The position numbers and the translations under genes are program-made. From contig PLGY01000064.1 of NCBI GenBank assembly GCA_003139855.1, positions 31,345 to 87,197 of the forward strand: 55,853 nucleotides of DNA, read 5' to 3'. The stretch comes from Candidatus Methanoflorens stordalenmirensis. GTDB taxonomy: Archaea > Halobacteriota > Bog-38 > Methanoflorentales > Methanoflorentaceae. Shown here piece by piece: positions 3,588-44,342 of this stretch. Under the pieces are notes generated by a model, which saw only the letters and a list, made by a program, of their open reading frames with translations, searched no databases and was not told the DNA's origin. Every line of letters begins with the position of its first letter. The first letter of the stretch is position 1.

Positions 3588-5945
3588 CTAGTGGTAGTAT
3601 ACGACGGCACCTCCGTCGTCAAAAACACGATTACTTGTCTCGGCGAAACCAGGCAAATTCACGTGGTATATCACCGTGCCGTTGAGAAATGATTGTGCGT
3701 TAGACTGCTGCGCTCTCGTCCCGGTGAGCAAATTGAAAGTCCCCAGAAAGACGTCCCCCGAAAGTGTCGTGTTGGCGTGCTCGTAAATCGGGAAACTTTC
3801 GAGCGAATTATTGAAATCAAGGCTAGTCAAGAGAAGGCTGCGATAAACGTCGGCGTATACGGGCGTGTTACTACCTCGCACTGTGTAGAGCCACTGAGCC
3901 CCAGCCACCTCTCTCGCATTGAACAGGGGGGCATCGATGGTAGCATTCAAGAAAAATGAGGTCGGATCCTGCTGCGTGACCTCGTAGATAAACCCAGTGC
4001 TAAACAACAGCGTCACAACAAAGAGCGCTGCGACCAGCTTGTAAGCGAGGCTCACGCCTGTCCTTGCACGCCGTTTCGCACGCAGGCGTTCCGGAACCCC
4101 CGCGAACAGCAGCGCTCCGGTAACGCAGAAGGGGGCCAGCAGAAGCGTTGAGATCTGATAGAGCCTCGTCGTACCGATAGTGGCCGCCAAACTCGGGATA
4201 GCGGCTGCTGTCATCAATATCGCGAGGGTCGCGAGTGCGAGCGCAGCGAACTCTGGATCAAACGTGAAACGACAACGGCGGAGTACGAGCGCAGCGAGGC
4301 CCACAAAGATGAAAACTAGGCCGAGCAGATAGAGGAACTCCGCCACCTCGTGGAGAGGTGAGAGCGTCCCGAGCTGGAGCAATTCGTTAACCGAAATCCC
4401 GTAATAGCGCGCGAACGCGTAAGACGCGGAGAGGATCGCGACCGGTGCCCCAAAGAGTCGCGGCAACGTTGATGTCTTCCGCTGAACTCGTCGGGCGAGC
4501 GCGTAGACGATTACGAAGGCGCACGCGTACGCCGCGGCGCCGATCGCGATTACGATAGGAACGTCAGGGAGAAACATGCTGCCAATGGCGGTGAGCTTAG
4601 GTGCGATTTCAGAGCTTAGTGCCGCGGACCCGAGCGTAGCGTACCACGCGGCAGTGAGGGCAGCGAACAACAAGACAAAGGGCAGCGTCAGCATCCGTTT
4701 CGGACGCGACGACGGCTTTGAGGGCTGCCCGGAAAAGGCGCGCCTTTGCAGGCGGCGCATAGCTGGGTTGTCGATGAGGAAGAGCACAAGCCAGGCGACG
4801 ACTAGATACACGATGAAGATGAGCGCAAGCCCGTAGTGCGACACAACAAGAGCTGCTGCGAACACTGCACAGAGCGCGTAAAGGCGTGCTGTCCCGGCCG
4901 AGCGCCCGACGCCTTTGTCCACCAGCAAGATTAAGAGCAGAACCAGAAACAGCTCGGCGATTTCCTGTCTCGCAAGTGCCGGCATTTCGCTCAAAAAAGT
5001 GAACAGGAACGTGATAAAGAACGAGGCCAAGAGGGCAATCCGGTCGCTCGTTTGTTTTTGAAACACGACGAACAGGCCTACTGGAACGAGGGCAAACAAG
5101 AGGGGATAGATCGTCTTGAAAATCCACGTCACGCTCACGCCTGACACGATCGAGATAAGTGGAGCGAGCAGCGTAATGCTCAGCACGCCGTTGATTGCGC
5201 CAGATGCATGCACATTCCACTGCGCGTTCGCAAGCACGGCGTTCGCGGTAGAGAGCTCCGTTTGGATGTCAAATCCCCAAACGTACGACGAGATAAGCGA
5301 TCCGCTATAGAGGAGAGCGAGCGCGATGACGAATACCGCGAGAGGATAAACCTCCTTTGGAACTGATGTGGACGTGCTTACCCAAAGCGCCGTTATCGCG
5401 ATGATGATGATTAGCGCGAGCAAGAGCACGTTGTTGCCGTACGCATTCATCGCGTACGTTGCAAATATGCTCAAGAAGGGGAGCACACACAGCGCCAACA
5501 CGGGCGGCGTCAGCACCTCACGTCGATCGACGACGCCGTCCTCAGCTGAACCCTGGTCGCGCCAATAACTCAGTACCGCAAGGAAGGTGATGATCGCACT
5601 TTCTGTCACCACAACAGGGACAAGCGCGAGCGGCCGCTCGAACCCGAGCAGCGGATACAACGTTGTCATGAGAAGTCCTGTACCCATGACGGCCGCGAGG
5701 CTCAAGCCAACCGCGAAGAGCGGCGTGCGCACGGCGCCGAGCTGGTGGAGGCGGAGAGCCCGAAGGACGAGGATACCGGGAATGAACAAGAGGTACACGG
5801 AGGCAAAGAGGCCCTGTAAAAGCGGTATCGGCACCCCTGCCGCGTCGAGTCCGATGAGGGCCCAGACAAGAAACTGCAGCGTGAGAACTGCCGTTAGCGT
5901 CTTTTTGCGCGGCCAATCGTTCATCAAGAGAGGATTAAGAACCAT
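3588..5945 (-). CDS. polytopic membrane protein, DUF2206-like
   Basis: About 785 residues with a dozen or more predicted membrane helices followed by an extracytoplasmic C-terminal segment of roughly 150 residues. 'NDWPRKKTLTAVLTLQF' near the start and 'PGILVLRALRLHQLG' near residue 50 recall the archaeal DUF2206 family (from memory). The architecture suggests a GT-C-like transferase or polymerase of surface glycan; that is inference. I place the start at 5945 because GGAGG lies 6 nt before it, inside the end of the upstream GT4 gene (11-bp overlap, translational coupling); 5924 has no such site. It is the last gene of the minus-strand operon and has a full-length paralogue at 10232-12565. 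Confidence 0.8.
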   Translation of the reverse strand: MVLNPLLMNDWPRKKTLTAVLTLQFLVWALIGLDAAGVPIPLLQGLFASVYLLFIPGILVLRALRLHQLGAVRTPLFAVGLSLAAVMGTGLLMTTLYPLLGFERPLALVPVVVTESAIITFLAVLSYWRDQGSAEDGVVDRREVLTPPVLALCVLPFLSIFATYAMNAYGNNVLLLALIIIIAITALWVSTSTSVPKEVYPLAVFVIALALLYSGSLISSYVWGFDIQTELSTANAVLANAQWNVHASGAINGVLSITLLAPLISIVSGVSVTWIFKTIYPLLFALVPVGLFVVFQKQTSDRIALLASFFITFLFTFLSEMPALARQEIAELFLVLLLILLVDKGVGRSAGTARLYALCAVFAAALVVSHYGLALIFIVYLVVAWLVLFLIDNPAMRRLQRRAFSGQPSKPSSRPKRMLTLPFVLLFAALTAAWYATLGSAALSSEIAPKLTAIGSMFLPDVPIVIAIGAAAYACAFVIVYALARRVQRKTSTLPRLFGAPVAILSASYAFARYYGISVNELLQLGTLSPLHEVAEFLYLLGLVFIFVGLAALVLRRCRFTFDPEFAALALATLAILMTAAAIPSLAATIGTTRLYQISTLLLAPFCVTGALLFAGVPERLRAKRRARTGVSLAYKLVAALFVVTLLFSTGFIYEVTQQDPTSFFLNATIDAPLFNAREVAGAQWLYTVRGSNTPVYADVYRSLLLTSLDFNNSLESFPIYEHANTTLSGDVFLGTFNLLTGTRAQQSNAQSFLNGTVIYHVNLPGFAETSNRVFDDGGAVVYYH

Positions 5946-7140
5946 GGCGGCCCTCCAGCACGCGCTTGTATACGGCGAGCAGTTGCGCGCCGATGGCGTC
6001 CCACGTGTACTTCTCTTCGAGGAGGTTTCGTGCGTTGGCACCCAACCGTGCTCGTTCGCGTTCATTTCCAAGAAGGTACGCCACTTGATCAATGAATCGT
6101 TCATCTACCCTCGGCACGATGAGCGCGTGTTCCCCGTTGTGCGCCGATACGCCCTCGATACCCTTTTCAGTGGTTACGATGGGAAGCGCTTTATTCATGT
6201 ATTGAAATATTTTCAGCCGCGTTCCGCTTCCGGCACCTATAGGCACGGTTGCTATTTCTCCTGCCGCGAGAAAGCGCGGCAAGTCCTCTATGAAGCCAAC
6301 TGAACGCACATTCTCTCGCTCAAAGGTCGGCGCGCCGGTGCCGCCCACCAAAAATAAAACGTTTGAGTTGACCGTTCGAAGTCGAGGTGCGAGGTACCGC
6401 TCGATGAGGTCAAACGCTTCGCGGTTGGGTGGGTACGCATAGAAGCCGTGAAACACGATGACGCGCGCGTGCTCGCTTATACCTTGCTCACGCCGCGCGC
6501 GAGCTTTCTCCTCGACCGTCGGCAACCGATCCAAGCTACAGCCAGACGGAATGACGCTTATCTTTCCAGGGGGAAGCCGGAACCGCCTAATGATGATGTC
6601 CCTATCGTGTTCGCTTACCGCGATAACGTGCTGCGCGACAAACCGGCAGACGAGCAGCTCAAGCAGGAAGACATACCGCGGAAGGACCAACCGTTCGATC
6701 CTGGTATACTGCGGGTCGTTGGAAAAAGTTTCGCGCACGAGCTCCGATTCGACGTTGTGAGGGGCATAGACAAGCGGAGCACTGCTGGCTGTCAGCAGAG
6801 TGGCGAGCTTCACGGCAAAAGCGCCGCTCGGATGCGATATCTGAATGAGGTCGACAGCGTTCTCACGCAGTATTCTTATGACGCTGCGCGCAAAGCTCGG
6901 TGCGAGGTCGCGAAAAACGCGCAGCGTCCGACCGACGAACTTGAGGTCGCTGTACGAGTAAATCGTGGCGAGCGTCGCGTCTTGAGGATCAACGAACTCC
7001 GCGGCTTCGAGCACGATAACGCTGTTGTCTCTGGCGGTGAGCTGCTTTACCAGATTGGCGTACCTCTCCTGTGACCCATTCTTCGGCTGCGAGAGACCTA
7101 CGTGAATAGTGATGTCTAAGACATTCACAGCAATCCTCAA
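5935..7140 (-). CDS. GT4 family glycosyltransferase
   Basis: A 401-residue GT-B retaining transferase. The N-terminal half carries 'VDLIQISHPSG' and 'VYAPHNVESELV'; the C-terminal half carries 'VIVFHGFYAYPPNREA', 'SVGFIEDLPRFLAAGEIAT' and the nucleotide-sugar block 'GSGTRLKIFQYMNKALPIV', with 'EKGIEGV' after it, similar to sugar transferases of the PEP-CTERM/EPS type. The start is TTG at 7140, overlapping the upstream stop as TTGA; GTG at 7128 with GAGG 6 nt before it is the alternative. It overlaps both neighbours, so it is clearly co-transcribed with them. Confidence 0.88.
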   Translation of the reverse strand: MRIAVNVLDITIHVGLSQPKNGSQERYANLVKQLTARDNSVIVLEAAEFVDPQDATLATIYSYSDLKFVGRTLRVFRDLAPSFARSVIRILRENAVDLIQISHPSGAFAVKLATLLTASSAPLVYAPHNVESELVRETFSNDPQYTRIERLVLPRYVFLLELLVCRFVAQHVIAVSEHDRDIIIRRFRLPPGKISVIPSGCSLDRLPTVEEKARARREQGISEHARVIVFHGFYAYPPNREAFDLIERYLAPRLRTVNSNVLFLVGGTGAPTFERENVRSVGFIEDLPRFLAAGEIATVPIGAGSGTRLKIFQYMNKALPIVTTEKGIEGVSAHNGEHALIVPRVDERFIDQVAYLLGNERERARLGANARNLLEEKYTWDAIGAQLLAVYKRVLEGRHGS

Positions 7141-10231: not shown

Positions 10232-12565
10232 TTATCCGTTCGTCTGATAGACTTGAGCGTAACCGTTAGAGTAAATGAGGTTGCTGCCTCCAACGTAGTA
10301 GCTCGCGTCCTGTTCCGTGGGCAGACTCGTTACGGGGTTCAAACCGACGACGAGTTTCCCCGTTTGCAGGTTGGGAGTACCGAGATAGATGTACGACCCT
10401 GACTGCAGATTCGCCCAAGAACCTCCGGCAGCGAGCGTCCTCGCTTGAGCTGGAGCGAACGTGAGGACAGCAAAGTATCGGAAGTCATCAGCGGCGATGA
10501 TGCCACGAGAGGCGTTTGCTCCTATCCACTTCGCCGCAACCATTTCTTGATCGTTGAACTTTCCAAAGTCGGCACTCGCGTCTAACGCTATGAGGGTTGA
10601 ACTATCGTTGATTTCGCCCCCCACTTTGTACAAGAGCCCCGCGTTAAACAGCAACAATACGACCATAAAACACGCCAAGGCCTTAAACGGAGGGGATATC
10701 GTTCCTTGTGAAACGACCGTGGCGCCTCGTTTCTTAACCACGCTGAAAATCCCCGCAAAGCCCAGGACGAGAAACACGCTCAGCACTATCTGTGCTATTT
10801 GCACGAAGCGTGAGAGGTTTAAACTCGCAGCAAACGCGGGCTCTACGAGACAAAGGTACAGAACGACCAACATAGCGGCAGAAAACGCGAGGTACTCATT
10901 CGAGAATCTAAGCCTTGATCGGTCTTTCAAGGCGAAAAAAATGCCCACGATTGCTGTAATCAGCGCGATGAAGAGGAGATACTCAGTGACCTGGTGCAAC
11001 GGAAGCTGATACGTAAGAATTGATTGAATCCCTGTAATAGTAGTAGAGGGCCCGTTCGCTAGTGAGATAACGGTGGGGGCTGGTATGTCGGAGGCGTTCG
11101 GTGCCCCGCTAATTTGGGCAAGCGGCGGTAGTCCGAGGTACACGAGAGTTCTCGTGAATATGTGCGCAAACGCGTCAAACGGCTCTGAGTTATTCGCAAA
11201 GCGGTACCAAACGGCTGCGAGTAGTGTGAAGCCGACAACGAAACCCGCACTCAAGCCGGTATTGCTGCGCAGTCGGCGCGACCGACGAAACGGCGGCACC
11301 GAGCCGTCAGCACCTAGAGTGCGGGCGACCCTTTGCGTCAGCGCTCTCACGTCGAAGCTCCCCACCACCAGAAGCATGAGCCACGCCAGAATGAAACAAA
11401 AGAGAAAGATGTACGTCATTGCATAATGTGAGACGATCAGCGAAAAGCCAAATAAGCCGAAGAGAAACAACCGCGGCGTCCTGCGCATCTGTTTTTCCAC
11501 GAGCAGCAGCAGCAGCGCAACAAGAAATAGCTCAGCAATTTCCTCGCGCGCCATGGTAAGCATCTCTGTGTAGAATGAAAAGGTCACCATAAAAAAAAAC
11601 ACGCCAAATAGAGCAACGCGAGGGGATGTTTGCTTTTCGTACAGCCTATAGAGACCGAGGGGCACCATAGCGAAAAGCAGCGGATAAACGAGCTTGAGGA
11701 CCCACGTCACGCTCATGCCGGTCGCGATAGAGAGCAGCGGAGCGAGCATAGTAATGCTCAGCATCGCATTGAGGTTCATTGCATTTGCACTGAAGTTCGG
11801 AGGGGCACCCCAGAAACCGTTGTTGACGACAGTTTGTGCTACCAGGTGTTCGAATTGGATATCGAATCCCCACAGGTAGTTCGTCACCAGGGCGTTGTGG
11901 AGTAGCAGCGCAAGGGCGATCGCCACGATCGCGAGAGAGTAGTAGCGTTTCGGCACGTAACGGGTAAAGCCACATACGAGAATCAGGGCGGCGACGGCGA
12001 GCAGCACGAGAACGGTTCCGACGCTCGTGCCACTTGCGTTGAAGAGGTACGCCCCAAAGACACCCATGAAGGGCAGCAGCAACAGACTCAGCGTCACTGG
12101 CGAAAGGGCTACGCGCGCGTCGATCGTTGCAGAGCGAGAATAATCCCGGTCGCGGTGATAGCTTAACACACAAAGCGCCAGGATAACCCCGCTCATCGTG
12201 GCGATGAACGGAACGAGTGTGAGCGGCGTGGACGTAATGCCACGAACGTAGACGGTGTTCATAAAGAGGCCCGTGAGCATAATCGTTGCCACGCTTAAGA
12301 GCACCGTGTAAAAAAAACCTTCAGTGACATTGAGCTCGTGCAACCTGAGAACCCGCAAAAGAACGATGCCGGGCACGAAGAGCAGGTAAACGAGTACTAG
12401 CCCCTCCCGTAGAATCGGCACGTGCACCCCGACGGCGTCTAGAGCTATGACGATCCAGACGGATACCTGAAGCGAGGCAATGAGCTTGAAGAACGTGGCG
12501 ATGTCCCAGTCGTTTGCTTCGAGTGGATTGCTGAGTTTCATGGATATGACGTCGGTGGCCTTCAT
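10232..12565 (-). CDS. polytopic membrane protein, DUF2206-like (paralogue)
   Basis: About 777 residues with many membrane helices and a C-terminal extracytoplasmic tail. 'EANDWDIATFFKLIASLQ', 'PGIVLLRVLRLHELNV', 'SNYLWGFDIQ'-like and 'AREEIAELFLVALLLLLVEK' each have close counterparts in the protein at 3588-5945, so the two are paralogues. The start is uncertain: ATG 12565 or 12541; the frame runs further upstream, but the conserved N-terminus begins at NDW just after 12541. A TATA-like TCTATATTC at about 12602-12611 fits a start at 12565. Possible role in polymerising or transferring surface glycan; no catalytic residue can be assigned. Confidence 0.78.
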   Translation of the reverse strand: MKATDVISMKLSNPLEANDWDIATFFKLIASLQVSVWIVIALDAVGVHVPILREGLVLVYLLFVPGIVLLRVLRLHELNVTEGFFYTVLLSVATIMLTGLFMNTVYVRGITSTPLTLVPFIATMSGVILALCVLSYHRDRDYSRSATIDARVALSPVTLSLLLLPFMGVFGAYLFNASGTSVGTVLVLLAVAALILVCGFTRYVPKRYYSLAIVAIALALLLHNALVTNYLWGFDIQFEHLVAQTVVNNGFWGAPPNFSANAMNLNAMLSITMLAPLLSIATGMSVTWVLKLVYPLLFAMVPLGLYRLYEKQTSPRVALFGVFFFMVTFSFYTEMLTMAREEIAELFLVALLLLLVEKQMRRTPRLFLFGLFGFSLIVSHYAMTYIFLFCFILAWLMLLVVGSFDVRALTQRVARTLGADGSVPPFRRSRRLRSNTGLSAGFVVGFTLLAAVWYRFANNSEPFDAFAHIFTRTLVYLGLPPLAQISGAPNASDIPAPTVISLANGPSTTITGIQSILTYQLPLHQVTEYLLFIALITAIVGIFFALKDRSRLRFSNEYLAFSAAMLVVLYLCLVEPAFAASLNLSRFVQIAQIVLSVFLVLGFAGIFSVVKKRGATVVSQGTISPPFKALACFMVVLLLFNAGLLYKVGGEINDSSTLIALDASADFGKFNDQEMVAAKWIGANASRGIIAADDFRYFAVLTFAPAQARTLAAGGSWANLQSGSYIYLGTPNLQTGKLVVGLNPVTSLPTEQDASYYVGGSNLIYSNGYAQVYQTNG

Positions 12566-13811
12566 GGATACGCCTTCAGTGGGCAATTTCGTTACCCGCG
12601 AAAGAATATAGAAGAGCCGAACGAGCGTGCTTCGTGATTCAGTTGTTTGCTCGTGCTCTATATCTAGTTTCTTAATGAGTGTAGTGAGAAGTCCTACACG
12701 TACATGCATTCACTTTTGCCAACATGCACACCGTTCGAACATGAGTCAGTGAGACGGATCATAGCGCGAATGAGGCTGCAGGGGGCCCCTCTTGAGGGGT
12801 ACCCCAAACCTTTAAAAGGCGGGGCAGCGTTAAAAGGAGGATTAAAGAGAGCGAAACTGAAACGAGGGTTAATCCGACTGTTTCTTGTAACCCCGCGCAA
12901 GCCGAGCACGATAGCGGCCGTTGGACGGGAAGCATGTGGCGACAAAGGCCGCGCTAAAACTCAATCAGCCGCGCAATCCCATTGGTTCCAGCAGACTGAT
13001 CAACGCGCGGCAAAAAGAATTGCTCGCTGCCAAGTCCTGCAACGCGTAGACCTGCTCGGCGCTCCGATCTGGGCCGCTCCGACCTGGGCAAGTGATATCG
13101 GTCGAAATGGTGCTTCGCGACGCGCCTAAGCCCCCGTGGCACAATCCAAGTGCCGCGCGTCGCCTGCTGGGACAAACAGCGCGTAGCACTTTGCCTTACA
13201 CAACAAAGTGCCGCCTTAGAAAGAACTGAGACGGGCTGGTTAAAGCTCGCCCTCGTTGACACGTCCCCCTTGGATCAGAAACGCTTTCGACTCGCACAGA
13301 CTGAAGACGTGTAGTGCCATCTGTCGAACAGGTGGGTCATGCGGCCTCACAAAAAGCCCCGTGCGAGGATCACGAGCTGCAACCCACAAAACACTTTCAG
13401 CCTCGCTGTTACTGGACACGCACAGGTGCTCGCTGTCTGTCGTTTAGGCGGGCACGCAATCATTGATCCGCGCTCAAAGGTCGGAGTCTAGAGGCGTTGC
13501 GTGGGGCTCGATGTGCTTCGTCATTACGTAAGATTGGCGAGAGGCGTGACCTATACTTGCTTTCGACGAACGCCGGACTTGACAAAAACAGCTGGTTCGT
13601 GGTTAAGTCGATCGCGTGCGTATGCAGCCTCTGCGCACCTTTGCTGGTCGCTCATGCAGTAAAGAAGGGATCGCCAAGCGGAACGGTTAAATACGAACCT
13701 TCTGTAGCTACATTGCAGCCGCATCGCAGCGCGCAAGTAAGAGCATCCGGTCATCCAGTTGGTCACGCTGGCGGAAGTCCCTTAACACTAACAACCGGTG
13801 CAAGAGAATCA
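12566..13811. other. long divergent intergenic region, no intact gene
   Basis: About 1.25 kb between the DUF2206 gene (minus) and the deacetylase (plus). It contains a short near-perfect direct repeat (CGCTCCGAtCTGGGC / CGCTCCGAcCTGGGC, about 13056-13087) and an AT-rich TTAAATAC at 13687-13694 that could be the TATA box of the deacetylase gene. Minus-strand frames in 12950-13260 look weakly coding but match nothing I recognise and could be relics. Confidence 0.45.
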
Positions 13812-21430: not shown

Positions 21431-23104
21431 TCAGCTGTAATGACTACCGCTATGGGGGAATAATTCTGCCACGATTGCTTGATAGACTCGCTGGCTGCTG
21501 TTTCCGTCGTGGTAGGCATTGAATGTGCTGCCCACTTTCAGCCTTTGCTCTTCGTACACCTCGCTTTCTCGCACAATTGCTTCGATACATTCGATGACTT
21601 CGTCCCAGTTCCGCGCTTTCGGACCAGGAGTTACGTCAGCGTAGTTATAGTACAGCGGCCGCTCGTTCGCGGTATAGCTGTCGATGTCAAATGGGGCAAA
21701 TATGATCGGCTTGTTTAAAAGTAAGTAATCAAAATATACACTGGAATAATCCGTAATCAACAGGTCCGTTTCGGATAGAATAGCGTAGATATCTTGATTG
21801 ATATCTTCATCTTTCACAAAAAGCACATTGCTGAGACTGCGGTCTAACAAGCGCAGCTCGCCTAAGTGGGAAAAATGTAATTTGACCAATAGGATGACGC
21901 GCAGTTCAGCTAATCTTGAATTGACAGCCTTCAAGTCGTTCAGTAAAAAAGCGAGACTTGTTTTTCCTCCTTGTCTATGCGTCGGCATGTATATTGCTAG
22001 CGTGAAAGTCTCCTTTAAAGTGTGCAGCAAATCCGTCATTGGGACTTTTGGTTTGTCTCGAGTGAGTAGAGCATCTGCTCGTGGGTAGCCCGTTATTTTT
22101 ATCCTTTGAGGCGAAACTCGAAAAGCTGTCGCTATCTTGGATCGCACCTCTTCTGAAGCCGCGATATACAGATCATCTTGGCACACTCGTCCGTTAAGCG
22201 GAAGCACATGCAATCGGGCGAGGTTCGGTCCTTTGCTGAAAACGATATAGAGGGGATCATCATATCCTATCTTCTTTAGAGGGGTGCCGTGCTCAAGCTG
22301 AACGATTTTGACCCGCCCAATAGGCCAGGTGTGATACGAGTTAAAGTCGAGGATCCCCGTCGATGTGACCCAGACGCCAGAGATCACCCGCAACAAGAAA
22401 CCGTGGATGCTGTTCACCAAATGAACTTCATAACCACGGTTTCTAACCAGATCGTACGCCGCTTTGTTTTTCGTGAGCCACACAGCCTTGATCGTGTGAT
22501 GATTGCGGTTCACATATTCAAACAGGTATTTGCTGTTATCCGCATATGCTTCACCGGACCATGCTCCGAAAATCCACACGCCCTTGTCCTTTGGCAAGAT
22601 CGTCGTCGCTAACCACAAGAGATCTCCAAAAACGCTCATAATGACCCAAGCTGTATGATTCGTTCTTACGAACGCCATCAAGCTTTGCATCGCGCGGCTA
22701 AGCCTTCCTATCAGAAACCCTCCTTTTGCGGTCTCCTGCGTGGTAACATTATTGAGAGCCGCCGTCACAAAATCGCGCTCTGCATATTTAGCCATTACTG
22801 CCCCCGCTTCATCTTTGAACCACTTATGCTGGTCGGGAAGGATTTTCCCGTCGAGTAAGTAAAGAAACACTTTTCTCAGGTTCTGACGAGTACCTTTCCG
22901 CCGCATGGGCCGGGCACGTGAGCGAAGCTCGAAGACCGTGCGAGTCGGTCGTTTTATCCGGAGACGTGCTGGCGTCCGAAGTGGTCTGGTCTCCAAATGA
23001 ACAACAATGTCAGCGACGCGGGTTATACTCGGTTTGCTCTCGAGGTAGGCACATACTTGCACGGTAAACCGGTGCCTTGCACGGTAAACCGGTGCCGCAG
23101 CCAC
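21431..23104 (-). CDS. CDP-glycerol glycerophosphotransferase family (TagB/TagF-like)
   Basis: About 557 residues. The C-terminal 380 residues are a canonical Glyphos_transf domain: '[20 protein letters not shown]', catalytic His in 'EHGTPLKK' (about 272), 'ITGYPRADALL', 'YMPTHRQGG' and '[19 protein letters not shown]'. Such enzymes transfer glycerol-phosphate, or ribitol-phosphate, from a CDP-linked donor. An N-terminal extension of about 150 residues is absent from the paralogue at 40268. The start is uncertain: GTG 23104 is the first in-frame start after the predicted promoter at 23148-23155, while ATG 23106, two bases away, reads into the gene only if one copy of a 20-bp tandem repeat (23057-23096) is removed. 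With gpsA and the nucleotidyltransferase upstream it forms module A. Confidence 0.85.
   Translation of the reverse strand: MAAAPVYRARHRFTVQVCAYLESKPSITRVADIVVHLETRPLRTPARLRIKRPTRTVFELRSRARPMRRKGTRQNLRKVFLYLLDGKILPDQHKWFKDEAGAVMAKYAERDFVTAALNNVTTQETAKGGFLIGRLSRAMQSLMAFVRTNHTAWVIMSVFGDLLWLATTILPKDKGVWIFGAWSGEAYADNSKYLFEYVNRNHHTIKAVWLTKNKAAYDLVRNRGYEVHLVNSIHGFLLRVISGVWVTSTGILDFNSYHTWPIGRVKIVQLEHGTPLKKIGYDDPLYIVFSKGPNLARLHVLPLNGRVCQDDLYIAASEEVRSKIATAFRVSPQRIKITGYPRADALLTRDKPKVPMTDLLHTLKETFTLAIYMPTHRQGGKTSLAFLLNDLKAVNSRLAELRVILLVKLHFSHLGELRLLDRSLSNVLFVKDEDINQDIYAILSETDLLITDYSSVYFDYLLLNKPIIFAPFDIDSYTANERPLYYNYADVTPGPKARNWDEVIECIEAIVRESEVYEEQRLKVGSTFNAYHDGNSSQRVYQAIVAELFPHSGSHYS
23057..23096. repeat. 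perfect 20-bp tandem duplication inside the 5' end of the TagF-like gene
   Basis: TTGCACGGTAAACCGGTGCC occurs twice head to tail (23057-23076 and 23077-23096). Twenty is not a multiple of three, so each copy shifts the reading frame. With two copies the frame fits GTG 23104; with one copy it fits ATG 23106. Confidence 0.95.
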
Positions 23105-23147
23105 ATTGCACAGTACGGGGTGCGAATGCGAAAGAGCTGACAGACAA

Positions 23148-23155
23148 GATATATG
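23148..23155 (-). promoter_or_regulatory. TATA box for the TagF-like gene
   Basis: The minus strand reads CATATATC, predicting a transcript start near 23125 and a leader of about 20 nt to the GTG/ATG pair at 23104/23106. Confidence 0.45.
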
Positions 23156-23491
23156 ATTATCCGGCACGTGTGAATCGGTCTCTAAGTCTTAGAGCTTCCC
23201 ACGCAGATCGTAAGATAACAGACAAGCTGAAGCAGAGCTCGCTATCGGTGGATCGTTCACTCTGTACAACCCTCAACTACAGCAATAAAGGCGAACTGAT
23301 GAGCTCGCAACTGCTGAGCTATTATCTCAGTGAGCTCGAGTGTCGCGGCCCCGCTATGCGGGAAAAGAAAAGGGCGAGGGGGGTGCCTGGTGGACGTGTA
23401 CCAACACCCGAACGTCACGGGGCGAGAGAACCTTAGCGTGGGGCTTACGAGAAAGGAACAAATTGATCGTATCAGGAACCATTTGGCGATC

Positions 23492-24469
23492 TTAAGCAAC
23501 TTCGTAGAATATGTCATTGATTTGGCTTTGTGCGCAACTGGGATCCTGTAGAGCTGCATTTACGAAGTCAATTATTGGTGTGTCCACGTGCGAGAGGCTA
23601 CATTTTTCCTTTAGAGCTCGGACTGAACTCAAGCCCTCGAAAACGATGCTGGAGCCGGTCTCCTGCGCACTTATCAAAAGTCTACCGGTCAATAGGCCTA
23701 AAGTGCGATTTCTGCTTTTATCAACGTTTGCAGTCAAATTCAGATCGCCAAACGCACAGAACTTGTGCGTCAGTTCTTGGTCGTTACTAAATTCCTGCAG
23801 AACACGTCGCATCTCCTTAAAGCATAGCGTCATAAATGCGTAATGTTCGTTGTTGCTGGTCAATACGGAATCGAAAATGCCCGTTGCAATTGCATAGACG
23901 TTCTTTAGCACGCCGCACAGTTCGACTCCTTGTACATCGTCGGAGAAATCGAGCAAGAAATTAGGACGCCTAAACACATCAAGGAACGTCTCCTTGCACG
24001 CGGGCTCATTGATCCCGAAAGTTGCACCGGAGCAATAGCCTCGCATCAATTCATCGGCAAAGGTCGCTCCCGAAAGACTAGAAACCCTCTTGTTACCGGT
24101 CTCCGCCCGTATAACTTCTGACATGAGCTTTAAGGAGGGGTATTCAATGCCCTTTGCTGCAGAGACGATTAGTTTTCCTCTCAAATGTGTACGAAGAGAT
24201 TTTGCCACTTTTCTGGTGACTCCGGACGGAACAGAGAATATGACCAGATCGGTTGTTTCTAGTCTGTCGCTATCGAAGAGACTTGACGCCGTAATATTTG
24301 AGTTTAATTCCGTCAGAGGGTAGTATTTGCGATTAACGTGACGCTCATTAATTGAACTAATGATTTCTTCGTTCCTCCCGAATAGATACACGTGAGAAAC
24401 GTTGCGTGAGATTGCCTGAGCAAGAGCGGTTCCAAAACTCCCTGGCCCTACCACCGCGACTTTTGTCAT
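23492..24469 (-). CDS. gpsA: glycerol-3-phosphate dehydrogenase, NAD(P)+-dependent
   Basis: 325 residues, the usual GpsA length. Rossmann 'VVGPGSFGTALAQAI' (6-20), 'SAAKGIEYP' with K106, 'LSGATFADELMRG', 'GVELCGVLKNVYAIATG' with the catalytic Lys189, and the phosphate-binding 'SRNRTLGLLTG' (252-262). The reaction is DHAP + NAD(P)H to sn-glycerol-3-phosphate. Archaeal lipids need sn-glycerol-1-phosphate, so this bacterial-type enzyme is not explained by lipid synthesis; its ATGA overlap with a nucleotidyltransferase and a downstream TagF-like gene point to glycerol-phosphate polymer precursors. Stereochemistry is assumed from the family. A gap of about 390 bp separates it from the transferase. 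Confidence 0.92.
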   Translation of the reverse strand: MTKVAVVGPGSFGTALAQAISRNVSHVYLFGRNEEIISSINERHVNRKYYPLTELNSNITASSLFDSDRLETTDLVIFSVPSGVTRKVAKSLRTHLRGKLIVSAAKGIEYPSLKLMSEVIRAETGNKRVSSLSGATFADELMRGYCSGATFGINEPACKETFLDVFRRPNFLLDFSDDVQGVELCGVLKNVYAIATGIFDSVLTSNNEHYAFMTLCFKEMRRVLQEFSNDQELTHKFCAFGDLNLTANVDKSRNRTLGLLTGRLLISAQETGSSIVFEGLSSVRALKEKCSLSHVDTPIIDFVNAALQDPSCAQSQINDIFYEVA

Positions 24470-25155
24470 GTGCTTTGCTCGCTGAAATGTTCTTTTACCG
24501 TGTTTAAATCTTCCTCGAAGTCGATTTCTGTGCAGAAATCATCGCCAATGTCTACTGGGAAAAAACGGACACCGCGTTCAATCGCCAACTCTACAGCTTT
24601 TTCAAAAAAATCGGCAGGTGTGCACTCGGTTAGACATGCAATGAAAGTCGGCAAATCTTGCTTTTTGATGAAATTGATTCCCACTGCTTCACCTAACGCG
24701 TTGCAAACAGTTTTTGAGATGTTGAGTATAGCACCATCTCGATCCACAGAGTATTTGACCTCCTCCGCCCCACAGGAACCGCGCTTCACAAAGACTAAAT
24801 TGTGGCCAGGATTTTTTTGAATTAAACGCAGGATGTCCCCATCAAACACTACATCGCCGTTAAGCCATAGAATATCGTCCCCGTTCGTTTTTTCGAGCGC
24901 TAGCAGCAAGCTTGCAGCAGTATTCGTTCGATCATAACGGTCATTGTAAACGAACGAGAGGTCGGGATATTTCTGGCTGATTAACTCGCTTCTAAATCCA
25001 ACGACTACTACAAGCTCTTCGACAGAAGATATTGTGGACAAATTACGAAGCTGGAAGTCGAGTATCGTAGTGTCTTTGGCTATTTCGAGCACGGCTTTAG
25101 GCGTTTCTCTGCCCAATCTGCTACCTTTACCTGCTGCAAGGATAATCGTTTGCAT
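24466..25155 (-). CDS. LicC-like nucleotidyltransferase, candidate G3P cytidylyltransferase
   Basis: 229 residues, NTP_transferase fold. 'MQTIILAAGKGSRLGRETPK' is the nucleotide-binding start (GxGxRL and PK, K20), 'WLNGDVVFDGD' holds the first metal Asp (101), and 'CTEIDFEEDL' (E210/D212) is the second metal site, with the EID spacing seen in phosphocholine cytidylyltransferases such as LicC. It overlaps gpsA by 4 bp, so the product of GpsA is the obvious substrate candidate. No TagD-type (HxGH) cytidylyltransferase is in the window. A hexose-1-phosphate thymidylyl- or uridylyltransferase cannot be excluded. A paralogue is at 36540-37307. Confidence 0.8.
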   Translation of the reverse strand: MQTIILAAGKGSRLGRETPKAVLEIAKDTTILDFQLRNLSTISSVEELVVVVGFRSELISQKYPDLSFVYNDRYDRTNTAASLLLALEKTNGDDILWLNGDVVFDGDILRLIQKNPGHNLVFVKRGSCGAEEVKYSVDRDGAILNISKTVCNALGEAVGINFIKKQDLPTFIACLTECTPADFFEKAVELAIERGVRFFPVDIGDDFCTEIDFEEDLNTVKEHFSEQST

Positions 25156-36539: not shown

Positions 36540-37307
36540 ATGACAGATAAAGGTGAGCAGAGGACGAAAGCGATAATTCTCGCAGCCGGTAGGTCAACCA
36601 GACTTCGGCCACTGACAGAAGAGGTGCCCAAATGCTTGTTATGCCTTGATGATGAGACCATCCTCGATTACCAGATGCGCCGTTTGGCAAAACTGGAGAT
36701 TGAATGCGCCCTGATAGTTGCAGGGTATAAGCGCGATTTAATACAGAAGCACATACAGAGGTCGGACTATAATCTACCAGTCACTATCGTCGATAACAAA
36801 TTGTTTTATGAAACCGACAATGCGTATAGTTTGTCACTCGCCTTGGAACACGTCGATCCCGCTGTGGACGCTATCCTCATCTTAGATGGTGATATATTGT
36901 TTGAATTTGAATTACTGAGAAGATTGGTCCAGTCACCACACGATAACGCCTGCATCGTCGAAGATGGAAAAGAAATAGAGCCTGAAGATTGCAAGATCGT
37001 GGTGAAAAATGGGTCTGCCGCGAGCATTGGTAAGACAGTTCCAGGCAACGCCGTGTACACGAGTATGATTAAGCTGAGCAATGAGCTCTTAACCGAATTC
37101 AAACAAGCGCTAAAAGAGCCGAGAGCGAAACTTGAATGGTATTCTGAACCGCTGAATAGACTTCTGCTTAAATTTCCCTCCGCAATGCACGTCCTTTATA
37201 CGAATGGGATGCTCCGCTGTGAAATAGACACGTATGATGACCTAATTCAAGCACGAGCCATTCGCCAAAGAATCACACAGCTCGAGCACGGAACGCATGA
37301 GGTATGA
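36540..37307 (+). CDS. LicC-like nucleotidyltransferase, second copy
   Basis: 255 residues, NTP_transferase fold. 'AIILAAGRSTRLRPLTEEVP' with K31, 'LILDGDILFEFELL' carrying the metal Asp pair (116/118), and C-terminal 'CEIDTYDDLIQARAI' matching the EID metal site of LicC-type cytidylyltransferases. It is a paralogue of 24466-25155, again adjacent to a glycerol-3-phosphate dehydrogenase: its last 11 bp overlap the FAD enzyme that follows. The shared neighbourhood, not the motifs, suggests glycerol-3-phosphate as substrate. A sugar-1-phosphate substrate remains possible. Confidence 0.82.
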   Translation: MTDKGEQRTKAIILAAGRSTRLRPLTEEVPKCLLCLDDETILDYQMRRLAKLEIECALIVAGYKRDLIQKHIQRSDYNLPVTIVDNKLFYETDNAYSLSLALEHVDPAVDAILILDGDILFEFELLRRLVQSPHDNACIVEDGKEIEPEDCKIVVKNGSAASIGKTVPGNAVYTSMIKLSNELLTEFKQALKEPRAKLEWYSEPLNRLLLKFPSAMHVLYTNGMLRCEIDTYDDLIQARAIRQRITQLEHGTHEV

Positions 37308-38418
37308 AGTAGTTATATTTGGTGGCGGAGCGACCGGTACCGCCGCTTTTCGAGATTTATCGATGAGGGGCTTTTCAGTCGCTCTCATCGAAAAACGGAC
37401 CATAGCGAGTGGCACGACTTCGTCTTCTCATCAAAACTTACTCGGCGGGATGCGGTACGTTTTGAAGGATCCAGTAGTCGCGCAAGAATGCGCCGAAGAG
37501 AACGAAATTATTTCTGATATCGCTTCAGAAGTAGTCGGAGATGTGCGGAATTACTTCGTCGGGGTGACTAGCGAATATACAATATCTGCGTTGCAAGCAG
37601 CCAAAAAGCTACACATTCAAGCGAAAGAAGTTGATATTGATGAAGTATTTAAAGAGATCCCCGAATTAAATAGAGATTTAAACGTTGCCGTGGAAACGGC
37701 CGACAAAAACATAAATGCACAGCGATTTTGTTGGCTGAACTGTTATTCTGCAAAGCAAAATGGAGGCAGCCTGTTCGAGAACCAAGAGCTTCGGTCGATA
37801 CACGAAATTGAACAGGAATTCGTAATATCCGCCAGCTTAGGCAAATTGAAGACCAACTATATAATTAACGCAACCGGCCCGTGGGTAAATACTGTGGCGA
37901 GTAACGTTGACGCGACCATTCCCTTAACCTACAGCCAAGGAACCATTATCGTTCAAAAGGCGCTCTGCTCACGAGGTATCCAGCATTTGCGCGAGCCGGC
38001 GGATGCAGATGCGTACATTGTACACAACGGGTACGGCTGGCTGGGTACGACTTCGACAACAATCCAGAGACCGGAAGACGCACATCCTGAACCTTGGGCT
38101 GACACATATCTGAAGAATGAAATCGCTCGCATCCTTCCAAATGTAAAGCTCCGCCCTACGCTGCGCATGTTTACTGGTGTGAGGGCACTCGCAGACGGTG
38201 AACACGGCACGGTCGAGTTAGGTCGGCACGACCCAGATGGACGGTTGAAGTCGCGTGACTTTAAGGTGATCGAGGATCCGAGCAACGTGTTCCATATTAT
38301 TGGGGGAAAGCTAACGACGGCGAGATTAATGGCAGAAAAAATAGCAGATGCTGTTTGTCAAAAGGCGCATTGTAACGTGCGCTGCAGAACGTCAAAAGAG
38401 TCCCTAAATGCCGATTAG
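37297..38418 (+). CDS. FAD-dependent glycerol-3-phosphate dehydrogenase-like (GlpA/GlpD core)
   Basis: 373 residues. Dinucleotide-binding 'VVIFGGGATGTAAFRDL' (5-21), 'IASGTTSSSHQNLLGGMRYV' (36-55), matching the GlpA/GlpD GTSSRS..-GGxRY block, 'NATGPWVNTV', and near the C-terminus 'IGGKLTTARLMAEKIADAV', a GlpA/GlpD signature. The C-terminal domain of full GlpD and the Fe-S tail of GlpA are missing. The family oxidises sn-glycerol-3-phosphate to DHAP; coupled to a nucleotidyltransferase it may act on a glycerol-phosphate-like precursor instead. ATG 37297 overlaps the upstream gene by 11 bp. A decayed copy of its last 30 codons lies at 40170-40252. Confidence 0.85.
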   Translation: MRYEVVIFGGGATGTAAFRDLSMRGFSVALIEKRTIASGTTSSSHQNLLGGMRYVLKDPVVAQECAEENEIISDIASEVVGDVRNYFVGVTSEYTISALQAAKKLHIQAKEVDIDEVFKEIPELNRDLNVAVETADKNINAQRFCWLNCYSAKQNGGSLFENQELRSIHEIEQEFVISASLGKLKTNYIINATGPWVNTVASNVDATIPLTYSQGTIIVQKALCSRGIQHLREPADADAYIVHNGYGWLGTTSTTIQRPEDAHPEPWADTYLKNEIARILPNVKLRPTLRMFTGVRALADGEHGTVELGRHDPDGRLKSRDFKVIEDPSNVFHIIGGKLTTARLMAEKIADAVCQKAHCNVRCRTSKESLNAD

Positions 38419-38441
38419 GCCCATTGGCGACTCAAATGGCA

Positions 38442-38448
38442 TTTTTTT
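38442..38448 (+). terminator. oligo-T terminator
   Basis: Seven T, 24 nt after the stop of the dehydrogenase gene, the usual form of an archaeal terminator. No hairpin. Confidence 0.45.
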
Positions 38449-38534
38449 ATGACCGGACTTCGCACGTGCCTCTGGGTCGAGGATGGCAACTATCACGGGG
38501 CTGCGCCAACAAGGTCATCGGCGAGAACGAACAG

Positions 38535-38542
38535 TTATAAAT
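38535..38542 (+). promoter_or_regulatory. TATA box for the GT2 at 38573
   Basis: TTATAAAT within ACAGTTATAAATCG; the transcript would start about 10 nt before ATG 38573, giving a nearly leaderless message. Confidence 0.5.
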
Positions 38543-38572
38543 CGCAGTCTACCATAAATCGACGATGCGAAA

Positions 38573-39601
38573 ATGACAGTGCAGGTTTGCGCAGCAACAG
38601 TCGCCTATAACGATCCAAAAGAACTTGCGCGTCTGCTCTCGTCACTTACGAATCAAGGGCCGGCTTTAAGTGGGCTCATCGTTATCGATAACTCGGATCA
38701 GACATACTTAGCAGAAAATAAGAGAGTGTTCGACACGCACTCTAAACAATACCCATTTACCTATTATCACCAAACCAAAAACAATGTGGGCTCTGCCGGC
38801 GGCTTTCACGTCGGTATGAAGGTTGCCCACGAGAATGGTTTCGATTGGCTTTGGCCCGTAGATCAAGACGGAGTCGCGTCAGATCTCTGTCTACCTGAGT
38901 TGCTGAAGCACGCTGACGACGGCGACATTCTTTGTCCCAAAAAGGTAGATATAGACAGGCCTTGGGTGGTTTTTACGCGTGAAAGGCTGAAGAAAAACTT
39001 TTTTGGACATCTGCGTCCCGTTCGTTTGAGTGCGGACATGTGCCGAATAGACGCTTTTGGCACACACGGGGTTCTCATTTCAAAGAAAGTCATGGACTCG
39101 ATCGGGTATTATGACGCTTGCCACTTCTTTGTCGGTTTGGAAGATTATGATTACGCACGTCGCGCGCTGCCAGCGAAAATTGCCATTATAGCTGTCGACG
39201 CGGCCGAAGTCCGACATCCAGACCTTCGGCGCAAAAAAGCGCTGCAAGAGTCCCCACTTAGACCTAGAGATGAATCAAAGCTTAGTGCGGCTATCGGCAA
39301 GCTTCGTCCAGAACATTTAGGTTACGTGATCCGTCCCAGCCGCGGTAAGCAGTGTTGCTCGAAGAATAGATACTTGCTGACCTTTTCATGGCTGTATTTT
39401 GTCACTGAAAGTTTATCAAGATGGCAATTTGCGATCGCGTTTCTGTACTCGCTCTGTGTGCTGTTCATCAAATCCGCCACGGAAAACGAAATATGCGTGA
39501 AAAAAACACTGGATGCCTACGTGAAGTGCCTCGTATCGAACCTCACAGACGAATGGCCTCACGGGTGCGTTGAAGAATTCTGTCGGTGCATTCTTGAATG
39601 A
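38573..39601 (+). CDS. GT2 family glycosyltransferase (GlfT2/rhamnosyltransferase-like)
   Basis: 342 residues. 'VCAATVAYNDPKELARLLSS' opens the fold, 'SGLIVIDNSDQT' follows, 'KNNVGSAGGFHVGMKVA' is the N-x-G-x-x-G-G-F block of the galactofuranosyl/rhamnosyl group, 'WLWPVDQDGVAS' supplies the metal-binding D-x-D, and 'FFVGLEDYDYARRAL' the catalytic ED. A hydrophobic stretch near 280-297 may touch the membrane. It lies within module B, between the dehydrogenase and the CDP-glycerol-type transferase. One inference: it makes the sugar linkage that receives glycerol-phosphate. Confidence 0.88.
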   Translation: MTVQVCAATVAYNDPKELARLLSSLTNQGPALSGLIVIDNSDQTYLAENKRVFDTHSKQYPFTYYHQTKNNVGSAGGFHVGMKVAHENGFDWLWPVDQDGVASDLCLPELLKHADDGDILCPKKVDIDRPWVVFTRERLKKNFFGHLRPVRLSADMCRIDAFGTHGVLISKKVMDSIGYYDACHFFVGLEDYDYARRALPAKIAIIAVDAAEVRHPDLRRKKALQESPLRPRDESKLSAAIGKLRPEHLGYVIRPSRGKQCCSKNRYLLTFSWLYFVTESLSRWQFAIAFLYSLCVLFIKSATENEICVKKTLDAYVKCLVSNLTDEWPHGCVEEFCRCILE

Positions 39602-40149
39602 CGCGCGCCCTGCACCAAGCCAGCAAGATGCGGACAAATAATCGTTGAGCCTCTAGAAAGCGTGCTAGGCACCTCAGCAAAGCAGTTCCTCGTCTTGATA
39701 GCTGTCTTGTCCGACGATTAGTGCAGCACTGCCCTCACGGATTATAGTTGCAGACGCGTGAATTTGACTGTTGGTTCTCGTGTGCTTTTTGCATTACTAA
39801 ACTTCGCTGGGATCAGTGCTGGCCGTATCGGCGTTGGATATGAGCACAAGCACGGTGAATAAGAACATAGATCATAACTGTTATATTGCAAAACGAAAAA
39901 AGGGAACTTGTGAATTCTGTAGCTCTAATGAGCAAAAAAATGAAATTATGCGTTTCTGATCCACTATTTATTGCTGAAGCGGCCTCCGTTTCAAAAGATC
40001 ATCGAACGAGCAACCGAAAAGAGCGATTATTACGCGATTGCTGCGCGCTGCCGACGACAAAGCGGCTACTATTAGGAGCACTACAGCATATGCAGAAGAC
40101 TGTGTAGAGAAGTTTTATCAACAAAGCGGCCTTGCGATTGCATCGATTC
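39602..40149. other. intergenic with probable decayed coding sequence
   Basis: About 550 bp. From about 39980 to 40200 the plus strand shows short coding-like pieces in changing frames, for example 'QKIIERATEKSDYYAIAA' and 'ASIRYDETWVYPTDVDVC', broken by stops. I cannot name the parent gene; the last piece runs into the dehydrogenase relic that follows. Confidence 0.4.
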
Positions 40150-40169
40150 GCTATGATGAAACGTGGGTG

Positions 40170-40252
40170 TATCCAACGGATGTTGATGTTTGTTAGAAAG
40201 GACAGCAGAACGTCCTGCGCAGAACTCAAAAGAGGCGCTTGATGCCGATTAG
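40170..40252 (+). pseudogene. relic of the 3' end of an FAD glycerol-3-phosphate dehydrogenase gene
   Basis: Around 40180-40252 the sequence translates, with one stop and one frameshift, to C*KGQQNVLRRT followed by SKEALDAD and a stop. The intact enzyme at 37297-38418 ends CQKAHCNVRCRTSKESLNAD. At DNA level the last stretch is almost the same, including ATGCCGATTAG at the stop. So a second copy of the dehydrogenase once lay immediately before the TagF-like gene, 16 bp from its start. Confidence 0.65.
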
Positions 40253-40267
40253 ACCTACTGCTCAACA

Positions 40268-41545
40268 ATGGAGCTTTTCTGCTGTATGAATATTTTTTAC
40301 TTGAAACTGAAGCACACTCTTGCTAACGTTACTTTCAATATTGAGTATTTTGCGTCAGGATTATTCCGCAAAGATCCGAATATGTGGATTTTTGGGGCCC
40401 CACTCGGCCAGAAATTTGCAGACAATTCCAAATACCTCTTTCTTTATGTAACCAAGAACCACCCCGATATAACCTGCGTTTGGTTATCGCGCAATATGGA
40501 TGTCATCGAAAAGCTGAGGAAGAACGGATATTCTGCGTATCACGTAAGCAGTCGAGAAGGTATTTTGCACTCGTTACGGGCCGGATGCGTAATCATTTCA
40601 ACTTCGTTGTGGGACGTCAATCGAAGCCTGATCAGAGGAGCAAAAGTAGTGCAACTCTGGCACGGCACCCCACTGAAGAAACTGCTTGTAACGAGCAAAT
40701 ACCGCTTTAGAAATCATAAACTCATGCTTCGTTTCTGGCTGTTCCTCAGGAGCCTAATGGCTAGCATATTTGGCTTTGAGGCTGAACACTATGATCTTAC
40801 CATCGCGACGTCTCAGGAGTCACGAACAACGATGTTATCCGCCTTCGACGAGCTTCCAGCTTTTCGATCTAATATGAATGTAGTCGTTACGGGATATCCA
40901 CGAAATGACGTATTGCTCGACGCATGGTGGTCCGATGATAACTGCCCGTATCTTGAGAATATAAAGGGCATAGTTGATTTTACGTTTGTGATTTGTTACT
41001 TGCCAACGTGGCGGCGGCAAGATGTTGGTCGAAAGCGGAATTTGCTTTTTGATTACGGATTCGATATTGACGAAGTAGAAGCATTGCTCACTCGAATAGA
41101 TGCAATTCTGATAATGAAAGTGCATGAGCGAGGAGCTGAACTAGCGCTACATCCAGAGCACGGCGATCAAAAAAGCAGAATTTTCACGCCCTCCGATACG
41201 GCATTGCCTGATATCTACCCTCTTTTGAAACGTGTCAATATCCTCATTACGGATTATTCCAGCGTCTATTTTGATTTTTTGTTGTTAGATCGGCCCATCA
41301 TATTTGCTCCATTTGATCTTCACGAGTTTGTTGGTTTGGACGGTCAAGAGTTATTCTATGACTATGGTGAGATAACGCCAGGTCCTAAAGCCACGGACTG
41401 GAAGGGAGTCTTAGAGTTTGTGGAACGTAATCTTCAAAGTGATGACTATAGAATACAACGGAAGGAAATTTGCCAACGTTTTAATGAATTTCGAGACTGT
41501 AAAAGCTCAGAACGCGTGTATAATATAATCAAAAAATCGCTTTAA
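40268..41545 (+). CDS. CDP-glycerol glycerophosphotransferase family (TagB/TagF-like), second copy
   Basis: 425 residues from ATG 40268; ATG 40286 is an alternative start. Glyphos_transf domain: '[20 protein letters not shown]' (39-58), catalytic His132 in '[11 protein letters not shown]', '[11 protein letters not shown]' (208-218), 'YLPTWRRQD', and '[19 protein letters not shown]' (327-345). It shares all motifs with the protein at 21431-23104 but lacks its long N-terminal extension. It would attach glycerol-phosphate, or a related polyol-phosphate, from a CDP-activated donor to a lipid-linked or surface glycan at the membrane. It closes module B. Confidence 0.88.
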
Positions 41546-43285: not shown

Positions 43286-43344
43286 TCACTTCCCCTTCCT
43301 TGAGTCCTTCAAAAAGAAAGAATCAAAAGAGCAAAACAGCGGAG

Positions 43345-43760: not shown

Positions 43761-43858
43761 CCCAAAGACCGGACACAGTTTACGCTGAACATGCTTGGGT
43801 TTCGGGGCACGGGCAGCGCTGTTTCTGCTTCCATAGCTGTTCCAATCCTCTCCGTACT

Positions 43859-44177: not shown

Positions 44178-44184
44178 GCGATAT

Positions 44185-44318
44185 TTTGGAATGGGAACAG
44201 TCAAACCGGGCTATATTCTATCGCACGGGCTGTCTGGTATCGAATGGAGACACTCCCGCCATCCGCTACCGGAGCCCGTGTATGACATCTGTATGAAGTT
44301 CTGGGAGAACGTTTAGTT
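44185..44318 (+). pseudogene. unidentified C-terminal gene fragment
   Basis: The frame reads 'GMGTVKPGYILSHGLSGIEW' and 'HSRHPLPEPVYDICMKFWEN', ending at TAG 44316-44318. It looks coding but I cannot assign a family; it has no start and follows the permease relic directly. Confidence 0.35.
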
Positions 44319-44342
44319 TAAAACCTAAGTAGGACCTTAGTT

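Follow-up and report, generated by a model that had tools for sequence, protein, structure and literature searches.

A predicted CDP-glycerol cassette serving a glycerophosphotransferase in a surface-glycan island of an archaeon

Introduction

We analysed a stretch of 55,853 nucleotides from the archaeon Candidatus Methanoflorens stordalenmirensis (contig PLGY01000064.1; henceforth the window), which carries three genes, here termed module A, for a nucleotidyltransferase (NTase A), an sn-glycerol-3-phosphate dehydrogenase (GpsA) and a TagF-like transferase (TagF A). We consider it probable, for the pathway taken as a whole, that module A is a self-contained CDP-glycerol cassette that feeds a glycerophosphotransferase within an archaeal surface-glycan island. 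With less assurance, we also favor the view that LicC-type cytidylyltransferases and a divergent subfamily of GpsA, coupled in translation, constitute a portable CDP-sn-glycerol cassette of archaea and at least one phage. In some archaea it would supply sn-glycerol-3-phosphate (G3P) solely for the decoration of surface glycans, so that the membrane would be built on sn-glycerol-1-phosphate (G1P) and the surface would carry G3P.

Archaeal lipid synthesis uses the G1P enantiomer and does not supply sn-G3P. In the route proposed here, GpsA would reduce dihydroxyacetone phosphate (DHAP) to sn-G3P, the LicC-like NTase would use CTP to convert sn-G3P to CDP-glycerol in place of TagD, and TagF A would move glycerol-phosphate from CDP-glycerol onto a glycan made by the neighboring glycosyltransferases, the export of which would probably proceed via a flippase. 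In parallel, a second set of genes in the island, module B, would employ another NTase, a GlpA-type FAD-dependent dehydrogenase run in reverse instead of GpsA, and a second transferase. We infer the substrate of the NTase, the direction of GlpA, the acceptor and the surface location; the choice of a surface glycan as acceptor, which is drawn from the surrounding island, is the least certain step. A route from DHAP through G3P and CDP-glycerol to glycerol-phosphate had been put forward in a preliminary description of this DNA, and comparative genomics lends independent support to each of its steps, notably through a recurrent gene neighborhood and the exchange of GpsA for GlpA.

Results and discussion

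Organization of module A

The components of module A, and the stretch between two of them, are as follows:

24466-25155, minus strand: NTase A, LicC-like (COG1213-type, NTP_transf_3), predicted CTP:sn-glycerol-3-phosphate cytidylyltransferase (from Pfam, fold and neighbors)
23492-24469, minus strand: GpsA, NAD(P)-dependent sn-glycerol-3-phosphate dehydrogenase of the module-type subfamily (from Pfam, a PDB match and its clade)
22796-23491, no strand: interval between gpsA and tagF without a recognizable gene (from the list of open reading frames, ORFs), with a short tandem duplication inside
21431-22795, minus strand: TagF A, CDP-glycerol:glycan glycerophosphotransferase-like (from Glyphos_transf and a match to 3l7i), start at 22690 or 22795

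All three genes are present on the minus strand where the preliminary description had placed them, and the overlap of the NTase gene with gpsA that it reported is indeed exactly 4 bp (ATGA). The compactness that it saw in the layout holds for this coupling and not for the adjacency of the transferase. As listed, the TagF A ORF runs from 21431 to 23167 (578 aa), with the Glyphos_transf domain beginning only at residue 189. Because similarity to the orthologue from the same species (locus L085) stops at about 22728, the start at 23167 appears over-extended, and ATG codons at 22690 or 22795, giving a protein of about 420-455 aa, are plausible starts. With the start moved inward, about 0.7-0.8 kb without a recognizable gene separates gpsA from tagF, and the notion of a tight three-gene operon is accordingly rejected in part. 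Within this gap CACCGGTTTACCGTGCAAG is present twice as a short tandem duplication, which is possibly a recombination scar of cassette exchange.

Sequence and structural affinities of the three proteins

NTase A (229 aa) matches the Pfam family NTP_transf_3 (3.8e-17), and its AlphaFold model has a pLDDT of 95.9. The closest folds in the PDB recovered with this model by Foldseek are PntC, LicC and inositol-1-phosphate cytidylyltransferase (IPCT), all of which are CTP:alcohol- or polyol-phosphate cytidylyltransferases, and which precede the sugar-1-phosphate NTases; phmmer matches in the PDB are 6pd1 and 1jyk. Across 26 relatives, residues P19-K20, D101, E210 and D212 do not vary. From the fold and the neighboring genes, we predict that NTase A is a LicC-type cytidylyltransferase using CTP and sn-G3P. 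The earlier suggestion of a LicC-type enzyme in the place of TagD is in keeping with this: the protein belongs to NTP_transf_3 rather than to the family with the HxGH/RTxGISTT signature, and no TagD was found over the cut-off in the 85% complete genome (TIGR01518 matches of 45 and 34 bits versus 165.4). Likewise, no glycerol kinase (GlpK) was found in this assembly.

GpsA (325 aa) is covered over its full length by NAD_Gly3P_dh_N (3.4e-35; 121.8 bits versus a cut-off of 23.1) and NAD_Gly3P_dh_C (3.4e-29; 102.3 versus 25 bits), matches PDB 3k96 at 2.4e-29, and is the only copy found in the genome. Residues K106, K189, D242, T246, R253 and N254, aligned with 3k96, are invariant in the subfamily; we take them to be the catalytic Lys, Asp and Thr and the phosphate-binding Arg-Asn, by reference to the human GPD1 structure. 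As no NCBIfam GpsA model reaches its cut-off (best subfamily model 211 versus 257 bits), this protein is best regarded as a member of a divergent subfamily. In trees, the module GpsA proteins form one clade (support 100/100), separate from Archaeoglobi GpsA and from that of the bacteria in which NTase A has relatives.

TagF A is a strong member of Glyphos_transf (1.1e-68; 232 bits versus a curated Pfam cut-off of 22.1) and aligns with Staphylococcus epidermidis TagF (3l7i; 1.7e-22), including the histidines of HGTPLK and K/RxH. These two histidines are the positions mutated in PDB chains 3l7j (HGTP to NGTP) and 3l7m (RMHY to RMAY). The HGTP and ITDYSS motifs were correctly reported as intact (HGTPLKK at residue 293 and ITDYSS at residue 471 of the long 578-aa ORF), and the HGTP, K/RxH and TDYSS motifs are invariant in 11 relatives. 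TagF A falls below the NCBIfam equivalog cut-offs for TarF (131 versus 550 bits), TarL (67 versus 1000) and TarB (40 versus 500). Together with the L085 orthologue, it is sister to proteins of Zixibacteria and Omnitrophota (100/100).

Module B and a cassette swap

A second set of genes spans 36540-41545 on the plus strand:

36540-37307, plus strand: NTase B (NTP_transf_3, 2.5e-15; closest PDB match LicC 1jyk, 2.4e-12)
37297-38418, plus strand: GlpA-like FAD-dependent sn-glycerol-3-phosphate dehydrogenase, 373 aa (DAO, 2.7e-31; TIGR03377)
38573-39601, plus strand: GT2 glycosyltransferase, GlfT1/rhamnosyltransferase-like (Glycos_transf_2, 7.5e-13; GlfT1-like, 9.9e-16)
40268-41545, plus strand: TagF B (Glyphos_transf, 2e-57; TagF 3l7i, 5.9e-21)

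The GlpA-like protein matches TIGR03377 (glycerol3P_GlpA) at 3.3e-78 with 263 bits, which lies under the cut-off of 553, as the protein covers no more than the first 376 of the model's 530 positions. No Glyphos_transf gene other than those for TagF A and TagF B was found in the genome. Each island module thus pairs an NTase and a TagF with a G3P dehydrogenase, and the two dehydrogenases, GpsA and GlpA, are non-homologous, their common chemistry being the DHAP/sn-G3P couple. In another genome of the same species (G197, locus L085), the TagF A orthologue (76% identical in amino acids, 79% in DNA) adjoins not NTase A and GpsA but orthologues of NTase B (73%), GlpA (88%) and the module B GT2, which is about 80% identical in DNA and likewise stands next to GlpA. 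One transferase is thus served by different cassettes in two genomes, and the cassettes are exchangeable between transferases. This swap of GpsA and GlpA at an orthologous TagF points to sn-G3P as the common intermediate, and the simplest product that both cassettes could share is activated sn-G3P. Three genomes of the genus (G197, G004 and G001) carry the GlpA version, and in none of them did the GpsA survey of the phylum find GpsA. A GlpA relative on a Natronorubrum plasmid was set aside, as it lies in an ordinary catabolic context with no NTase or TagF annotated.

Recurrence of the coupled NTase-gpsA pair in archaea

We searched 394 genomes of the host phylum for Glyphos_transf and for GpsA over the cut-off, and recovered them in 44 and 33 genomes respectively. 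The GpsA-bearing genomes include 24 from an Archaeoglobi-like family (f4); the other nine, namely that of the window, seven from the methanogen-like family f3 and one from family f21, all have Glyphos_transf. Each of the nine has gpsA in an overlap of exactly 4 bp with a LicC-like NTase gene upstream. The seven f3 genomes belong to one genus, and the coupling should thus be counted as three independent families rather than nine genomes. TagF lies about 8 kb from the pair on the same contig in one genome (G094) and within a few kb in the rest. As a control, none of 21 Archaeoglobi-like loci, with flanks of about 1-1.5 kb, has an NTase next to GpsA, and no Glyphos_transf was seen in that family in the survey. 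The search for the same neighborhood in other archaea, which the preliminary description had called for, is thus positive, with the 4-bp pair in eight further genomes from two other families; given this recurrence, the pairing is more than chance. The NTases of families f3 and f21 and NTase A form separate lineages.

In several other archaeal genomes (loci L088, L091, L092 and L097) and on a Halorussus aquaticus plasmid, an NTase is paired with TagF but no G3P dehydrogenase accompanies them. One archaeal family has, in four of its genomes (L087, L089, L090 and L099), ORFs of 1.5-1.7 kb with a LicC-like NTase at a distance of about 1.1 kb from Glyphos_transf, and that of L087 displays a further architecture, a fusion to a HAD phosphatase. 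In another archaeal genome (G221), a gene adjoining Glyphos_transf encodes a fusion of a TagD-like CTP_transf_like domain with a Gfo/Idh/MocA oxidoreductase (L102:9367-10728).

Viral and bacterial relatives

In the Cobetia phage Carin-5 (L150, PV155638.1, 103258-113959), gpsA stands directly before an NTase-A-family gene, close to a glycerophosphodiesterase gene and next to nrdAB. Its GpsA joins the module clade (100/100) but on a long branch, and its NTase matches NTase A with 104 bits. This set may modify DNA or the host surface with glycerol-phosphate; neighboring phage genes were compared with TagF profiles as possible relatives, with negative results. A scan of viral sequences with a single NTase sequence gave no match, and one with an NTase alignment recovered a 202-kb IMG/VR contig (L044/L152) that carries an NTase-A-family gene with no gpsA or TagF nearby. 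Module-type GpsA was not found in the viral contigs scanned or on plasmids (among the matches listed, the best have 29-32% identity and at most 126 bits); nor was it found at E <= 1e-40 in 133 genomes of one bacterial phylum, a search that lacked a positive control and shows little.

A two-sequence alignment, used to scan 84,980 species genomes, recovered 33 loci with relatives of NTase A (37-49% identity). They come from Desulfovibrio, Omnitrophota, Planctomycetota, Bacteroidota, Bacillota, Atribacterota and others, along with one Thermoplasmatota archaeon. Relatives at 41-49% identity adjoin Glyphos_transf genes in many bacteria: among 34 loci (the 33 from the scan and a Solidesulfovibrio plasmid), a strong Glyphos_transf match directly adjoins the NTase in 14, from several bacterial phyla, and a weaker one in about 10 more, two of which were confirmed by Pfam. 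NTase A itself is placed inside a bacterial set (97/88). Since both NTase A and TagF A group with bacterial proteins, module A looks chimeric, a bacterial-type NTase and TagF apparently having been joined to an archaeal- or phage-type GpsA. In one locus from Halanaerobiales (L030), the NTase-A-family gene lies between two CDP-alcohol phosphatidyltransferase genes, which suggests a soluble or lipid phosphodiester as its product. In an Archaeoglobi-like genome of family f4 (L007, genome G073), a LicC-like NTase adjoins a gene that, judged by eye from its translation, is CDP-alcohol phosphatidyltransferase-like, making this NTase a candidate for the glycerol- or inositol-phosphate cytidylyltransferase activities of Archaeoglobi.

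Alternative interpretations

Several observations weigh against module A being a CDP-glycerol cassette of the kind proposed. None of the bacterial NTase A relatives in the 34 loci adjoins gpsA; in 9 of 12 carriers tested gpsA is found elsewhere in the genome, in keeping with a supply of G3P from lipid metabolism in bacteria, but the other three, including an Omnitrophota genome with a close NTase-TagF pair (L011), have no gpsA match, which may reflect incomplete assemblies. The Thermoplasmatota relative (L043) has no TagF-type match within its 6.9-kb locus, and TagF A itself sits 0.7 kb from gpsA. GlpA-type enzymes normally oxidize G3P, and the biosynthetic direction in module B is an assumption. 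The long stem of the module GpsA clade makes a changed substrate possible, and the substrates of LicC-like enzymes are diverse: the closest folds act on 2-aminoethylphosphonate (AEP), phosphocholine and inositol-1-phosphate, and CpgD acts on phosphoglycerate (PMC12275187). The last two points would fit a different scheme, in which the NTase activates another alcohol phosphate (phosphoglycerate, phosphocholine or another polyol phosphate), TagF transfers that group and the GpsA subfamily has shifted to another keto-phosphate. We regard this as unlikely, given that the unrelated GpsA and GlpA, which share the DHAP/sn-G3P pair, are swapped at an orthologous TagF, that the GpsA active site is conserved and that a glycerophosphodiesterase lies next to the phage version.

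CDP-glycerol could also be made for a lipid head group, or for a soluble phosphodiester solute of the kind found in Archaeoglobus and Aquifex (diglycerol phosphate, glycerophosphoinositol). The glycerol-phosphate cytidylyltransferase activity reported from A. fulgidus lysate and Aquifex in work on glycerophosphoinositol (PMC8262930), together with the pairing of NTases with CDP-alcohol phosphatidyltransferase-like genes in the archaeal L007 and bacterial L030, lend this some weight; the partner in module A is, however, a Glyphos_transf protein rather than a CDP-alcohol phosphatidyltransferase, and it is set in a 50-kb glycosyltransferase region with a flippase. We hold such a product to be about as unlikely as a different alcohol phosphate. 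That GpsA is unrelated to the NTase and TagF, whether as a chance neighbor or with a role in lipid or redox metabolism, might be argued from the fact that bacterial GpsA is known mainly for lipid G3P and that archaeal GpsA has been treated as a set of scattered horizontal transfers (PMC5059525). The 4-bp coupling to an NTase of all nine non-Archaeoglobi GpsA found in the survey of the phylum, in three families, and the adjacency of gpsA and NTase in the phage render this highly improbable.

Comparison with known systems

Module A resembles the wall teichoic acid systems of Gram-positive bacteria (TagD/TarD, TagB and TagF/TarF) in its predicted CDP-glycerol donor and in its Glyphos_transf transferase with two conserved histidines. 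It differs in having a LicC-type NTase for TagD and a G3P dehydrogenase inside the cassette, in an archaeal host without peptidoglycan, and in that no TagO/TagA linkage or LCP ligase families were recognized among the larger window ORFs scanned, no genome-wide search for them having been made. The Actinobacillus pleuropneumoniae proteins Cps3B and Cps3D (PMC8262930) likewise combine a cytidylyltransferase with a TagF-like transferase in a surface-polysaccharide locus; however, Cps3B is TagD-like (HxGH), the 1149-aa Cps3D is a polymerase with several domains, and G3P comes from general metabolism. LicC, IPCT, PntC, Cj1416 and CpgD share with NTase A the fold, the Pfam family, the invariant acidic and lysine residues and CTP-type relatives, though NTase A is only 18-26% identical to the solved COG1213/LicC-like members.

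No COG1213/LicC-like member acting on G3P was found in the literature examined. A pneumococcal pathway makes CDP-2-glycerol via a sugar-type NTase, though no paper on it was found. Known glycerol-3-phosphate cytidylyltransferases belong to the HxGH family, AQ185, which is of the FAD-synthetase family, being among the exceptions (PMC8262930), and the module A enzyme, if our prediction is correct, would represent a third CDP-glycerol-making family. Cps3B and Cps7B accept both enantiomers of glycerol-phosphate, and the A. fulgidus activity favors G1P (PMC8262930). A dedicated GpsA makes sense in that known glycerol-phosphate cytidylyltransferases may take both enantiomers and archaea already make G1P; the supply of sn-G3P would therefore imply that the product needs this enantiomer.

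The presence of a TagF-type gene in an archaeon is not new as such: Methanobrevibacter ruminantium has TagF-type homologues and a cell wall reported to be phosphate-rich. The paper deals with homologues only, and the passages found describe no NTase-GpsA cassette (PMC2812497). Archaeoglobus fulgidus, with its GpsA (1txg) and glycerol-phosphate solutes, provides a precedent for archaeal GpsA and CDP-glycerol chemistry, but the Archaeoglobi GpsA falls in another clade (100/100), with no adjoining NTase, and the survey showed no Glyphos_transf in the family. We found no paper on an NTase-GpsA-TagF cassette in the open-licence literature. An earlier study recorded GpsA in Archaeoglobi, Methanobacteria and Methanomicrobia but did not tie it to a function; archaeal GpsA genes have served as evidence on the lipid divide and been ascribed to scattered horizontal transfer with no functional role. 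The same study states that gene-structure features offered nothing usable and does not mention teichoic acid or CDP-glycerol (PMC5059525). Because every non-Archaeoglobi GpsA found in the phylum is tied to an activating enzyme and a glycerophosphotransferase, its job there is probably surface decoration rather than lipid synthesis. A cassette of this kind would account for the retention, in a few archaea, of an enzyme supposed to be bacterial and would render a long-standing oddity directly testable. It further suggests a wider occurrence in archaea of teichoic-acid-like chemistry based on the bacterial enantiomer than the few reports found indicate.

Host genome and surroundings of the cassette

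The assignment of the DNA to an archaeon in the preliminary description is supported. The host assembly (2.06 Mb, 85% complete) encodes an archaeal-type CarS CDP-archaeol synthase (178 bits) and a gene of the G1P dehydrogenase family, the latter being weaker evidence for an archaeal host as the family also matches in bacteria, and genomes of the same phylum hold a GpsA with a 720-bit match to the Archaeoglobus fulgidus structure 1txg. Judging from these genes, the DNA comes from an archaeon equipped with genes for G1P lipids. Contamination with bacterial DNA is unlikely, since parts of the island, among them TagF A and genes of module B, recur at 66-85% DNA identity in genomes of the same species and genus.

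The modules are embedded in a 50-kb region of glycosyltransferases that includes the flippase (48038-49489). In the regions 42302-46411 and 53132-55665, several ORFs contain DUF346 repeats (44618-46411, 53132-54223 and 55210-55665); these ORFs, like a related segment near 42.7-43.0 kb, have diverged repeats in common with positions 14-17 kb of another locus (L093). Two large DUF2206 membrane proteins (3588-6104 and 10232-12709) flank glycosyltransferases.

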